Assembly: GCF_900177375.1 (NCBI RefSeq)
Contig: NZ_FWZU01000002.1
Location: 1-64,000, forward strand
Direction: 5' to 3'
DNA from: Desulfovibrio gilichinskyi
Lineage (GTDB): Bacteria; Desulfobacterota; Desulfovibrionia; Desulfovibrionales; Desulfovibrionaceae
DNA: 64,000 bases
Part shown: positions 28,639 through 37,434 of the stretch, one piece after another
Layout of the letters: every line of letters starts with the position of its first letter
Position numbering within the stretch: position 1 is the first letter of the stretch
The notes under the pieces: generated by a model
Told to the model about the DNA's origin: nothing
The model's input: only the letters and a program-made list of their open reading frames with translations
The model's database searches: none
Made by a program: the position numbers and the translations under genes

Positions 28639-28672
28639 AAAAAGGGCCGTATCTTAAAGATGCGGCCCTTTT
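28639..28672 (+). terminator. Bidirectional intrinsic terminator
   Basis: AAAAGGGCCG and an inner ATCT pair with AGAT and CGGCCCTTTT, giving a strong hairpin with A- and T-rich flanks. It lies between the convergent CBS-ACT and HesB-like genes. Confidence 0.88.
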
Positions 28673-28719: not shown

Positions 28720-29031
28720 TTAACCGCAGCTTCCTGAGCACGAGCCGCAAGAGCCTGCGCCGCCCATTTCCATAGCAGAAGTAATAACAAATCCGCTATA
28801 GCTCAGGTCTACTTTGAAGGGGCTTCCCTGTCCGTTAAGTTCTTTGTCTATTACAAAGTTGAATCCCGCTGCATCAAGGTTTTCGTCAGTGTCTTTTGGC
28901 TCATCCAGAGCCAATGCCAATCTTGGACCTGATCAACCACCTGTGGCGAGGTAGATGCGAATAGGGGTTTTTTCTTTATCAGCAAAATAGCTTTCCAGCT
29001 GCTTGGTGGCAGCTTCTGTGATTTCAACCAT
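28720..29031 (-). CDS. HesB/IscA-like selenoprotein (Sec33)
   Basis: A 103-residue A-type Fe-S carrier-like protein read through an in-frame TGA at 28933-28935, codon 33. The context is ATGG-U-SGPRLAL, where ordinary HesB/IscA proteins have Cys in GGCSG. Homology runs on both sides of the UGA, from MVEITEAATKQLESYF to the Cys/Gly-rich tail GSCGSCSGSCG. A GGAGGAAAC site precedes the ATG. HesB-like selenoproteins are a known family in deltaproteobacteria; their exact job is unclear, but Fe-S or redox chemistry is likely. Standard annotation would truncate this gene to its last 66 codons. selD in the same window supports selenocysteine use. Confidence 0.9.
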
Positions 29032-29223
29032 TGTTTCCTCCTTATAGGGCTTGTCTATGCAAAAGTAAGTTTTCTATTAGGTTTTGTCAAATGTACAATG
29101 TTGACCTTGAAAGTCTCTTAAGGTAGGAAATAAATTCAGTTCAGTTTTATCAACAAAATTATTTGTTTTAGATATTCCAACAAGACAAACTAAACGCTCC
29201 ATCGTTTATAGGGAGTCATTATA

Positions 29224-29778
29224 ATGAAGACTAAAGATCTCATCTTGGAAACAGCCAAAGAAATGATTTCTCAGGTGGGTTTTCATAGAGCAACTACTTC
29301 TAATTTAGCTAAAACAGCTAATATTTCAGAAGGAACCATATACAGGCACTTTGAAAGTAAAGAAGATATTCTTCTTCACATTCTAACAGGGCTTGAAAAT
29401 GAATTTTCATACTATGTTGAAAGCATTCATCAGAGAATTGATAAAGGCGAGTGCACATTTGATTTGATAATGTCAGAGTACTTTAATTTTGTTACAGCAA
29501 ATGAAGTTGACCTTAAGATCATGCTTTCCACATATGGTTTGCTGGATTCTTCTAAAAGGTTGATGGCTATTTTCCTTAAGAATCTTGAGCTTATTCTTGG
29601 TGAATGCATCAAGGACGGAATCAAAAAAGGTATTGTCAAAGATGTTCCTGTGGAAGAAAATGCCACAGTCGTCATGACAATTATTTTCGGTTTGACCAGA
29701 CTTCATTTGTACTGGCCTGATCAAGGCGATGTACGTACAGAAGCTATTGCTTTCTGCCGTCGCAGTCTGCTTAAATAG
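29224..29778 (+). CDS. TetR-family transcriptional regulator
   Basis: A 184-residue regulator with an N-terminal TetR helix-turn-helix (about 5-52, with ATTSNLAKTANISEGTIYRH in part) and a helical ligand-binding C-terminal region typical of the family. It converges on the copper ATPase gene, with a terminator between, so it is not obviously that gene's regulator. The effector is unknown. A GGGAG site precedes the ATG. Confidence 0.88.
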   Translation: MKTKDLILETAKEMISQVGFHRATTSNLAKTANISEGTIYRHFESKEDILLHILTGLENEFSYYVESIHQRIDKGECTFDLIMSEYFNFVTANEVDLKIMLSTYGLLDSSKRLMAIFLKNLELILGECIKDGIKKGIVKDVPVEENATVVMTIIFGLTRLHLYWPDQGDVRTEAIAFCRRSLLK

Positions 29779-29839: not shown

Positions 29840-32320
29840 TTAGACCGTAAAAAACTTCAGTCGCAATGCATTGGTCACTACTGTTACTGAACTTAGCGAC
29901 ATTGCCGCGGCGGCGAACATGGGTGAAAGAGTCGGTCCACCGAAAATGTAGAGCAATCCTGCTGCAACAGGAATTCCGAGTACGTTGAAAGCAAAGGCCC
30001 AGAAAAGGTTCTGCTTGATATTTTTGACTGTAGCACGGCTGAGAGCTAAAGCTGTCAGAACCCCTGTGAGGTCTCCCTTCATCAGCACAATGTCGCCTGA
30101 TTCAATGGCAACATCAATTCCTGTTCCCATGGCAATTCCAAGGTCCGCTGAGGCCAGCGCGGGCGCATCGTTGATGCCGTCACCAACCATTGCGACTTTT
30201 CTTCCTTGAGCTTTTTCTCTGTTAACAACTTCAGCTTTGCGGTCCGGCATTACCTGCGCGACCACTTCATCTATACCTGCGCTTTTTGCTATTGTTCTGG
30301 CAACTTTCTCGTTATCTCCGGTAAGCATAACTGTTTTTACGCCTAAGTCGTGAAGTTTTTTTATTGTTGCAGGAGCTTCTTTTTTAATTTTGTCAGCAAT
30401 TGCCATAATTGCGGCAAGTTTTCCGTCTATGGCGATGTAAAGCGGACTTTGCCCGGCAGATTCGAAGCGAGAAGCTGCCTCTGTAGCATTTTTAGCGTCA
30501 AGTCCTGTTACAAAATTACGGCTCAGGTATTCTTTATTGCCGAGCAGCATTGAGTGTCCGCCTGTCTCTGTGGCAATACCGAGCCCTGCAACTCCAGTAA
30601 ATGATGTTGTTTCAGGCAGAGATACTTCTTGCTTTTCCGCCGCGCGCAGGACTGCTTTTGCAAGGGGGTGTTCAGATTGCTGTTCTGCAGATGCCGCGAG
30701 GGACAGCAGTTCTTCTCCATTTTGTCCATCCGCTAGAAATGTATCAACTAACTCAGGCTGTCCGTAGGTCAGAGTGCCTGTTTTATCGAAGATCATGGTG
30801 TTTATTTTTCCGGCTGTTTCAAGAGCTTCACCCGATTTTACAAGTACGCCGAGCTGTGCGCCGCGTCCTGTTCCGACCATAATTGCAGTAGGCGTTGCAA
30901 GTCCCATGGCGCACGGGCAGGCAATAACCATCACGCTGATAAAAATACGCAAGGCAAACGAAAAAGGTTCGTCGCTGAAAACGTACCAGCTGAGACCGGA
31001 AAGAACGGCAATAGCCATTACCGAAGGCACAAAATAAAAACTTACGGTATCCGCAAGGCTGGAGATCGGAGCTTTTGACCCTTGAGCCTCCTGCACGAGT
31101 TTAATGATGCGTGAAAGAACAGTGTTTTCACCGACATTCTTGACCCGTACTTTCAGTGCTCCGCCGCCGGTGTTTACAGTGCCGCCTGCAACGGAGTCAC
31201 CGACAGTTTTTGATACAGGCATGCTCTCACCTGTAAGCATGGACTCATCCAGTTCAGAACGGCCTTCGTACACAGTTCCGTCTGCGCCTACTCTGTCACC
31301 GGGGCGGATGAGAATATTATCGCCTGGGCCTATTTCTTCGATCGGAGTTGAAACCTGTTTATTGTTTTCAAGTAAAATGGCCATTGCCGGAGTCAGGTCC
31401 ATTAATTTTTCAATAGCTTCTGAAGTGCGTGATTTGGCGCGCCCTTCTTGAAATTTTCCCAGTAAAATAAGTGTAATAATTGTTGCGGCGGATTCAAAAT
31501 AAAGATCCATGGCCTTTACCATGGGATCAACACCGATTGCGATTTCAACAAGATTCCAGAAGGAATATACAAACGCCGCAGATGTTCCAACTGCAATCAG
31601 TGAATCCATGTTTGGAGCACCGCGCAGAATATTCGGGATACCGTGGATGTAAAAATCTTTACCGAACCAGATTACAGGCAAGGTCAAGAAAAGTTGGACG
31701 AGGGCAAATCCAAGCGGCGAATCGTGCGGATTTATAACAGATGGCAACCCCATGCCGACCATGTGGCCCATGGTTATGATGAGCAGGGGAATGGTGAATG
31801 CCAGAGCATAGATCAGCTTTTTTTTCATTAGAGCCAGTTTTGCCGCGTTATCTTCACGTCTGGCTTCAAAATTTTTATGTGCGTCCTGTGCGGATTCTAT
31901 TTCTCCGGCTTCGAATCCGATATCCTTTATGGTTTGTCTTATATCTCTCAGCGAAATAATCGCGGAATTAAATTTTATAGTTGCAGTTTCACCGGGAAGA
32001 CTGACTCCGGCTTTGATTACTCCGTCCGTATTATTTAAAACACGTTCAAGCCTCGATGAACAAGCCGAGCAGGTCATGCCGGATATTGGCAGAAGAATTT
32101 CTGTTCCTGCAATTTTTTCAGTAGCTTCAAATCCAGCATTTTCAACCATTTTAATGATTTCAGCGGTCGAAACAGCCTTTTTATCGAAATCTACGGCTAA
32201 GGATTCAGTAGCCAGATTGACGCTGGCATGCTTAACTCCTTCCACGTTATTGATGACCCTTTCGAGCCTTGATGAACATGCAGAACAGGTCATTCCTTTA
32301 ATTTCAAAAAGTGTATTCAT
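29840..32320 (-). CDS. copA: Copper-exporting P1B-type ATPase
   Basis: An 826-residue heavy-metal ATPase. Two N-terminal HMA domains each carry GMTCSACSSRLERV. The membrane CPC motif is in IACPCAMGLATP, the phosphorylation site is DKTGTLT, and TGES, the HP site (SEHPLAKA) and GDGINDAPAL are present. CPC with twin GMTCxxC is the Cu(I) export signature. I start at 32320 (MNTLFEIKG), which has AGGAA upstream; the longer frame adds 16 unlike residues. No CopZ or CueR/CopY-type regulator is adjacent. Inner membrane, about eight helices. Confidence 0.93.
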   Translation of the reverse strand: MNTLFEIKGMTCSACSSRLERVINNVEGVKHASVNLATESLAVDFDKKAVSTAEIIKMVENAGFEATEKIAGTEILLPISGMTCSACSSRLERVLNNTDGVIKAGVSLPGETATIKFNSAIISLRDIRQTIKDIGFEAGEIESAQDAHKNFEARREDNAAKLALMKKKLIYALAFTIPLLIITMGHMVGMGLPSVINPHDSPLGFALVQLFLTLPVIWFGKDFYIHGIPNILRGAPNMDSLIAVGTSAAFVYSFWNLVEIAIGVDPMVKAMDLYFESAATIITLILLGKFQEGRAKSRTSEAIEKLMDLTPAMAILLENNKQVSTPIEEIGPGDNILIRPGDRVGADGTVYEGRSELDESMLTGESMPVSKTVGDSVAGGTVNTGGGALKVRVKNVGENTVLSRIIKLVQEAQGSKAPISSLADTVSFYFVPSVMAIAVLSGLSWYVFSDEPFSFALRIFISVMVIACPCAMGLATPTAIMVGTGRGAQLGVLVKSGEALETAGKINTMIFDKTGTLTYGQPELVDTFLADGQNGEELLSLAASAEQQSEHPLAKAVLRAAEKQEVSLPETTSFTGVAGLGIATETGGHSMLLGNKEYLSRNFVTGLDAKNATEAASRFESAGQSPLYIAIDGKLAAIMAIADKIKKEAPATIKKLHDLGVKTVMLTGDNEKVARTIAKSAGIDEVVAQVMPDRKAEVVNREKAQGRKVAMVGDGINDAPALASADLGIAMGTGIDVAIESGDIVLMKGDLTGVLTALALSRATVKNIKQNLFWAFAFNVLGIPVAAGLLYIFGGPTLSPMFAAAAMSLSSVTVVTNALRLKFFTV

Positions 32321-32356
32321 AGTATTTCCTGTAATATATATTGGCTGGGTACTGTT

Positions 32357-32375
32357 CAGGGATTGCATTGCCCTG
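32357..32375. promoter_or_regulatory. Inverted repeat upstream of copA
   Basis: CAGGG-N9-CCCTG lies about 37 bp upstream of the copA start. It could be an operator in the copA promoter region, but no known copper-box consensus is matched. Confidence 0.3.
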
Positions 32376-36367: not shown

Positions 36368-36390
36368 TTTCTACTTAAAGGAGAATGACT

Positions 36391-37434
36391 ATGTCCGCTT
36401 GGGAACTGGTCAAGTCTGTTAAAGCCGCGGGTTGAGCCGCCAAGATTGCTCCGGGGGACCTGGCGCAAGTGCTTGAAGGGTTAGCCGTGGAAGACGAACG
36501 TCTGCTGACCGGACTGGGGGGGAATGAAGATTCCGCCATAGTGTCTTTTCCTGCGGGCAAAGCCCTTGTTCAGACTTTGGATTTTTTTACGCCCATTGTT
36601 AATAATCCTTATTGGTTCGGGCAGATTGCTGCTGCTAATTCTCTGTCTGATGTTTATGCCATGGGCGGTGAGCCTTGGACTGTTATGAATATAGTTTGCT
36701 ATCCCATGAAAAAAATGGGTGGCGAAGTACTGCGCGAGATTCTTAAAGGCGGCATGGATAAAACCCGCGAAGCCGGAGCTGTACTTGCCGGCGGTCATAG
36801 CGTTGAGGATGATGAAATTAAGTACGGTCTTTCCGTTACGGGTTTTGTAGATCCTACCGGTTTTGCTTCTAACAAAGGACTGCGTGAGGGCGATCAGCTG
36901 CTCTTAACCAAACCTCTTGGGACCGGAGTGCTGGCGACAGCTCTAAAGGCTGACTGGGACGGCGCAGAACGTTTTGAGAGGGATGTCTATAAATGGTCTT
37001 CCCGCTTAAATAGCGGCGGCGGAAGAGTCATTCGTGAACTCGGCTTAAAAGGAGCCACCGATATTACCGGATTCGGCCTTGGCGGACATGTTTTAGAGAT
37101 GGCGGAAGCTTCAGGCGTAGCCGTTGAACTGTGGCTTGATAAAGTGCCGTTTATGGACGACGTTATTGATCTGGCTTCTATGGGCTTGATTCCGGCAGGA
37201 AGTTTTGCCAACCGCAATTTTTGCAGTTCACAGGTGGAGACGGCGAAAGGCTCAGACCCTGTTAAGACGGACCTTGTTTTTGATGCCCAAACTTCCGGTG
37301 GATTGATTTTAGCTGTTCCTGCGGAGAAGTTGCAGCAGGCTAAAGATATGCTCCTTGAAGCCGGAGATTTGGCGGAACATATCGGACAGGTTGTTTCGTT
37401 TGATAAGCGAAGAGGGCGGCTGCGAATCGGATAG
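36391..37434 (+). CDS. selD: Selenophosphate synthetase, selenocysteine-containing (Sec15)
   Basis: A 347-residue SelD, which makes selenophosphate from selenide and ATP. From the ATG at 36391, preceded by AAGGAGA, codon 15 is TGA (36433-36435) in the context KAAG-U-AAKIAPGDL, exactly where other SelD proteins have the active-site Cys or Sec. The following conserved K18 is present, and the rest carries the usual ATP-binding GGNEDSA and AGGHSVEDDE segments. Just after the UGA, GCCAAG can pair, with one mismatch, with CCTGGC as a SECIS-like hairpin. Annotation that stops at UGA would lose the catalytic end. Confidence 0.95.

Follow-up and report, generated by a model that had tools for sequence, protein, structure and literature searches.

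A conserved HesB-like selenoprotein gene with a predicted IscA-type fold in Desulfovibrio gilichinskyi and related sulfate reducers

The stretch of DNA analyzed here (the window) comprises the first 64,000 nucleotides of contig NZ_FWZU01000002.1 of Desulfovibrio gilichinskyi and contains, on its minus strand, a gene for a HesB-like selenoprotein together with the features listed in Table 1. A preliminary description of this DNA had placed the gene in the same interval without giving a strand. The interval is right when read from 29031 to 28720, where translation with TGA as selenocysteine (Sec) yields a 103-residue protein with a single Sec (MVEITEAATKQLESYFADKEKTPIRIYLATGGUSGPRLALALDEPKDTDENLDAAGFNFVIDKELNGQGSPFKVDLSYSGFVITSAMEMGGAGSCGSCSGSCG), and this protein was not obtained by translation of the plus strand of 28720-29031. 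The in-frame UGA that had been reported at codon 33 is present, the homology seen on both sides of it agrees with a match to NF038090 (IscA_HesB_Se) that spans residues 1-97 of 103, and the ribosome-binding site described as good is found 5 bases 5' of the ATG and is kept in relatives. The accompanying statement that automatic annotation would retain no more than the C-terminal 66 residues appears doubtful, given that the family has an NCBI model of its own (NF038090) and that annotated HesB-like selenoproteins exist in RefSeq (PMC13188914).

Upstream of the gene, a -35-like element of its own promoter was recognized. In addition, an inverted repeat (GGTCAAC ... TTGACAAA) within window positions 29032-29223 overlaps, in most congeners, the promoter that lies between the HesB-like gene and the divergent TetR-family gene and represents a possible operator. 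Downstream, a G+C-rich inverted repeat sits between the HesB-like gene and a convergent CBS-ACT gene, so that the HesB-like gene is probably transcribed alone. Each of the 17 genomes of the genus has the TetR-family regulator next to the HesB-like gene, as do four loci from other genera. A CopA-like copper ATPase precedes the HesB-like gene on the same strand in some members of the genus; in a genus of another family (f5) and in a single genome of a third family (f6), it is the direct upstream neighbor (approximately 90-120 bp). At L082, L092, L093, L098, L100 and L103, an ATPase gene of this kind, in the same orientation as the Sec gene, ends approximately 90-120 bp before it. The location of the gene beside a copper ATPase in some lineages is a detail that has possibly not been reported. 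Neighborhood analysis gave no clear functional partner, as TetR, PyrR-like (named by eye), CBS-ACT and CopA genes vary by lineage, and no Fe-S assembly gene was prominent among the recurrent neighbors within the flanks examined.

Table 1. Features of the window around the HesB-like selenoprotein gene, with the evidence for each
Feature	Position	Strand	Evidence
G+C-rich inverted repeat with flanking A and T runs, probable bidirectional terminator	28640..28672		sequence
HesB-like (IscA_HesB_Se, NF038090) selenoprotein gene of 103 codons, with TAA (28720-28722) as stop codon	28720..29031	-	translation with TGA=Sec; NF038090 116.8 bits, curated cut-off 85
Predicted SECIS hairpin UUGGCUC-UGGAU-GAGCCAA, 7 bp stem, loop G	28896..28914	-	fold; synonymous-site conservation; compensatory changes
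UGA codon 33, predicted to be read as selenocysteine	28933..28935	-	kept in congeners and wider relatives
Ribosome-binding site AAGGAGG	29037..29043	-	sequence; conserved in relatives
Promoter of the HesB-like gene itself, -35-like element TTGACA	29085..29090	-	TTGACAAA invariant in 21 aligned upstream regions of several genera
Divergent TetR-family regulator	29224..29778	+	Pfam PF00440; tblastn
Copper-type P-type ATPase (CopA-like), upstream, same strand	29840..32368	-	TIGR01511 598 bits, cut-off 397; neighbor search
selD, selenophosphate synthetase, own in-frame UGA (codon 17), supplies selenium donor	36385..37434	+	TIGR00476 328 bits, cut-off 125; translation

A selenocysteine reading of UGA33 would have been refuted, according to the preliminary description, if SelA, SelB and tRNA-Sec were missing from the genome. 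All three were found, tRNA-Sec with 80.1 bits (over its cut-off), SelB with 386 bits and SelA with 602 bits, and SelD is encoded in the window itself. The selD gene, directly downstream of a cobT-like gene, is a selenoprotein gene too, with UGA codon 17 within the motif AAGUAAKI; ordinary ORF calling starts it at 36469, as against 36385 when the UGA is read through.

The family search revealed one single-TGA copy and one Cys copy per genome in 17/17 genomes of the genus, so that homologues with Sec and homologues with Cys at codon 33 both occur, and family members in 56 of 58 relatives, most of the 58 having a single-TGA copy. The UGA stands at the identical codon in all 65 distinct aligned Sec copies, and its position is kept in approximately 95 homologue copies overall. 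Across a sample of the phylum, a family match was obtained in 165 of 297 genomes (in 125 of them above the NF038090 cut-off), with a single TGA in most copies among the matches listed.

The comparison of bacterial SECIS elements that had been proposed for the region behind the UGA led to a hairpin with a loop G shortly downstream of UGA33. When the gene region was scanned with Rfam, all matches were sub-threshold and no SECIS family was among them. In the first comparison set (the 58 relatives plus loci from further genome contigs, mostly of the same order), the hairpin GCUC-UGGAU-GAGC is common to 65/65 distinct UGA copies, and the segment from base 24 to base 36 after the UGA's U is near-invariant (GCTCTGGATGAGC). 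The sequence Ala-Leu-Asp-Glu is encoded in 64 distinct Sec copies, as GCT CTG GAT GAG in 59 and as GCT CTG GAC GAG in 5, whereas among 45 distinct Cys copies the same residues are encoded in 22, with 15 different codon sets, the first of the two sets just named occurring in none of the 22 and the second in two. All four inner pairs of the stem can be made by 65/65 Sec copies versus 2/45 Cys copies, and the fold is more stable relative to synonymous-codon shuffles in Sec copies (mean z -1.92, 66 sequences) than in Cys copies (-0.52, 47 sequences; Mann-Whitney p = 9e-10 for sequences that are not independent). Compensatory changes were detected in three pairs: pair 26-34 (T-A to C-G, with Glu to Gly) in L085, pair 25-35 (C-G to T-A, with Ala to Val) in L169 and L172, and pair 23-37 (G-C to T-A, with Pro to Gln) in approximately 21 copies. 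Since such paired stem changes alter the amino acid, the hairpin is, to judge from these alignments, overriding the protein sequence.

These observations bear on the simplest alternative, namely that the UGA is a true stop or that the gene is decaying and gives a truncated product only. A nonsense mutation in one genome would indeed look like an in-frame UGA, but the UGA is kept at the same codon in so many copies, followed by a hairpin that is itself conserved and flanked by coding sequence that is intact both before and after it, that this reading is extremely improbable, and a pseudogene or nonsense mutation was rejected on the same conservation. With tRNA-Sec, SelA, SelB and SelD present, the UGA and the SECIS element conserved and Cys homologues available, we are nearly certain, on comparative evidence, that the product is a selenoprotein.

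The genome of D. gilichinskyi carries, elsewhere, a Cys paralogue of the same family (G000:C2:416968-417258, corresponding to L010:1414-1725); the Cys paralogue of the congeners has an AraC-type regulator upstream. A tree of 110 sequences with the tail left out requires at least 20 changes between the Sec and Cys labels by parsimony, 13 of which are forced by well supported branches; as it is based on 89 columns and midpoint-rooted, the direction of change is deduced mainly from remnant hairpins. In many cases a Cys copy groups with the Sec copy from its own genome as its sister, on a longer branch, and the Cys copies of the window's genus form one clade. Same-strand pairs of a Sec and a Cys copy, 68-648 bp from each other, occur in 13 fetched loci (L020, L021, L022, L023, L039, L052, L054, L055, L057, L058, L062, L084 and L103). 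The tree suggests that such pairs arose repeatedly rather than once. Two Cys copies keep the stem, one in genome G025 that adjoins a Sec copy and has an intact loop and another in G031 that has lost the loop G, as expected if they derived from Sec genes. A remnant SECIS is known from a Cys-containing HesB-like gene of Desulfitobacterium hafniense, and two Sec-to-Cys conversions were counted among 11 HesB-like selenoproteins in the 2006 survey (PMC1794560), so the trend was already known on a small scale; the repeated rise of Cys paralogues beside Sec copies is a possibly unreported detail. In addition, two genomes (G017 and G027) are each rich in diverged members (such as L136, L137, L139, L140 and L141), several of which have an in-frame UGA behind Gly or Cys-Gly (motifs such as GGUGG, CGUGG and CGURG), and most of which are without the cysteine-rich tail.

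The family itself is not new, as the preliminary description had already stated. The product passes the NF038090 cut-off and does not differ from other IscA/HesB family proteins with Sec or Cys that this model describes, having Sec33 where its paralogue has Cys. HesB-like selenoproteins were listed in 2006 for two Desulfovibrio species and for Geobacter (Zhang et al. 2006, PMC1794560), and a 2026 review lists the HesB-like family under the motif UxGP and assigns it no settled role (PMC13188914). A relative in Methanococcus maripaludis is a selenoprotein by mutagenesis and 75Se labeling, its gene can be disrupted, and the mutant still fixes nitrogen (PMC11097638). With this HesB-like selenoprotein of the literature (TIGR01911) the product shares Sec at the first Cys position and the UxGP motif (here USGP), but its score of 37.1 bits is below the curated cut-off of 66.35, and it thus belongs to the sister model. 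Judged from its sequence, the gene is a true selenoprotein gene and an ordinary member of the known HesB-like family, and not a new kind.

In the AlphaFold model, the product is IscA-like (pLDDT 81) with a disordered tail (pLDDT approximately 43), and the best Foldseek matches were IscA with a [2Fe-2S] cluster (1x0g, E 1e-6), E. coli IscA (1r94 and 1s98, the latter with TM 0.71) and SufA. Profile alignment (GGUSG versus GGCSG) agrees with the earlier placement of the UGA at the first conserved Cys of A-type carriers, so that the fold and the first ligand position in the GGCSG-type loop are those of IscA, SufA and ErpA, with Sec replacing Cys. The C-terminal motif of IscA is CGC. This ligand pair, CGC(G), is not found in the product, which has CGSCSGSC instead, i.e., three tail cysteines (C95, C98 and C102) that are invariant, spaced more widely than in CGC and set in a Gly/Ser-rich stretch. 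Invariant positions among 73 diverse members are Met1, Arg25, Cys/Sec33, Gly35, Asp43, Asp49, Gly80, Cys95, Cys98 and Cys102. The likeness to A-type carriers extends to a weak match to Pfam PF01521 in the protein scan (31.1 bits, cut-off 26.3), but the score for TIGR00049 is 36.6 bits against a cut-off of 58.8, and those for the IscA, SufA and ErpA models are lower still, all far below their cut-offs.

The search of the 58 relatives for canonical A-type carriers gave no match above the TIGR00049 cut-off, as compared with matches in 8 of 14 control genomes, and those weak matches for which a comparison of positions was made belong to the HesB-like family. Searches of the D. gilichinskyi genome with PF01521 and TIGR00049 gave no match, though the product matches PF01521 as a protein; diverged members thus escape whole-genome searches of this kind, and the statement is limited to canonical carriers above the cut-off. 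In this form, the lack of canonical carriers in the relatives is a further detail that may be unreported.

As a whole, we consider the following explanation likely. The gene encodes a selenoprotein of a known family with an IscA-type fold, and among the possible roles of the product the leading one, although it has slightly less than even odds, is that of an A-type carrier. SelB with Sec-tRNA(Sec) would decode UGA33, guided by the mRNA hairpin just behind it. Sec33, a possible Fe-S cluster ligand, and the three tail cysteines provide four potential soft ligands per monomer, and the selenolate and thiolates would hold iron or an Fe-S cluster and then hand it over, in anaerobes whose genomes gave no canonical IscA, SufA or ErpA; the Cys paralogue would then serve as a selenium-independent version. 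Binding and transfer of a cluster or of iron is our best guess for the function, if a tentative one. Against it speak the C-terminal motif unlike that of IscA and the low confidence with which the tail is modeled, as well as the viable, nitrogen-fixing M. maripaludis mutant and the lack of a prominent Fe-S assembly neighbor in the flanks examined.

The same tail could be read differently. If the IscA fold no longer carried clusters, Sec33 might be joined to one of the cysteines of the CxxC-type tail in a selenenylsulfide, making the protein a redox enzyme or switch, a reading that fits the three invariant cysteines in a flexible Gly/Ser-rich tail devoid of CGC and the redox roles expected for most uncharacterized selenoproteins (PMC13188914); as the homology and fold point to Fe-S carriers, Sec occupies a ligand position and the Pfam scan found no oxidoreductase domain in the product, we regard it as somewhat unlikely. 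The four invariant thiol or selenol groups might also bind a soft metal such as Cu(I) or Hg(II) in an efflux-linked buffer or chaperone, in keeping with the CopA-like ATPases upstream. However, most loci are without copA linkage, neighbors vary between genera and the synteny may be merely inherited, which makes this role less probable still.

Several aspects of these results are worth keeping, namely the repeated Sec/Cys pairing, the lack of canonical carriers and a hairpin that appears to override the protein sequence. The comparative set makes the function of the family testable, since it offers natural Sec/Cys pairs within single genomes and since no A-type-carrier-like proteins other than the HesB-like ones were found in this order. 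If the HesB-like proteins do carry clusters or iron, a step in Fe-S supply would be selenium-dependent. It is even conceivable, although we consider it improbable, that the Sec/Cys pair took over the job of A-type carriers in this order of sulfate reducers, delivering Fe-S clusters or iron via a selenolate/thiolate site with four ligands, and that the Cys copy evolved anew again and again to serve when selenium is scarce.
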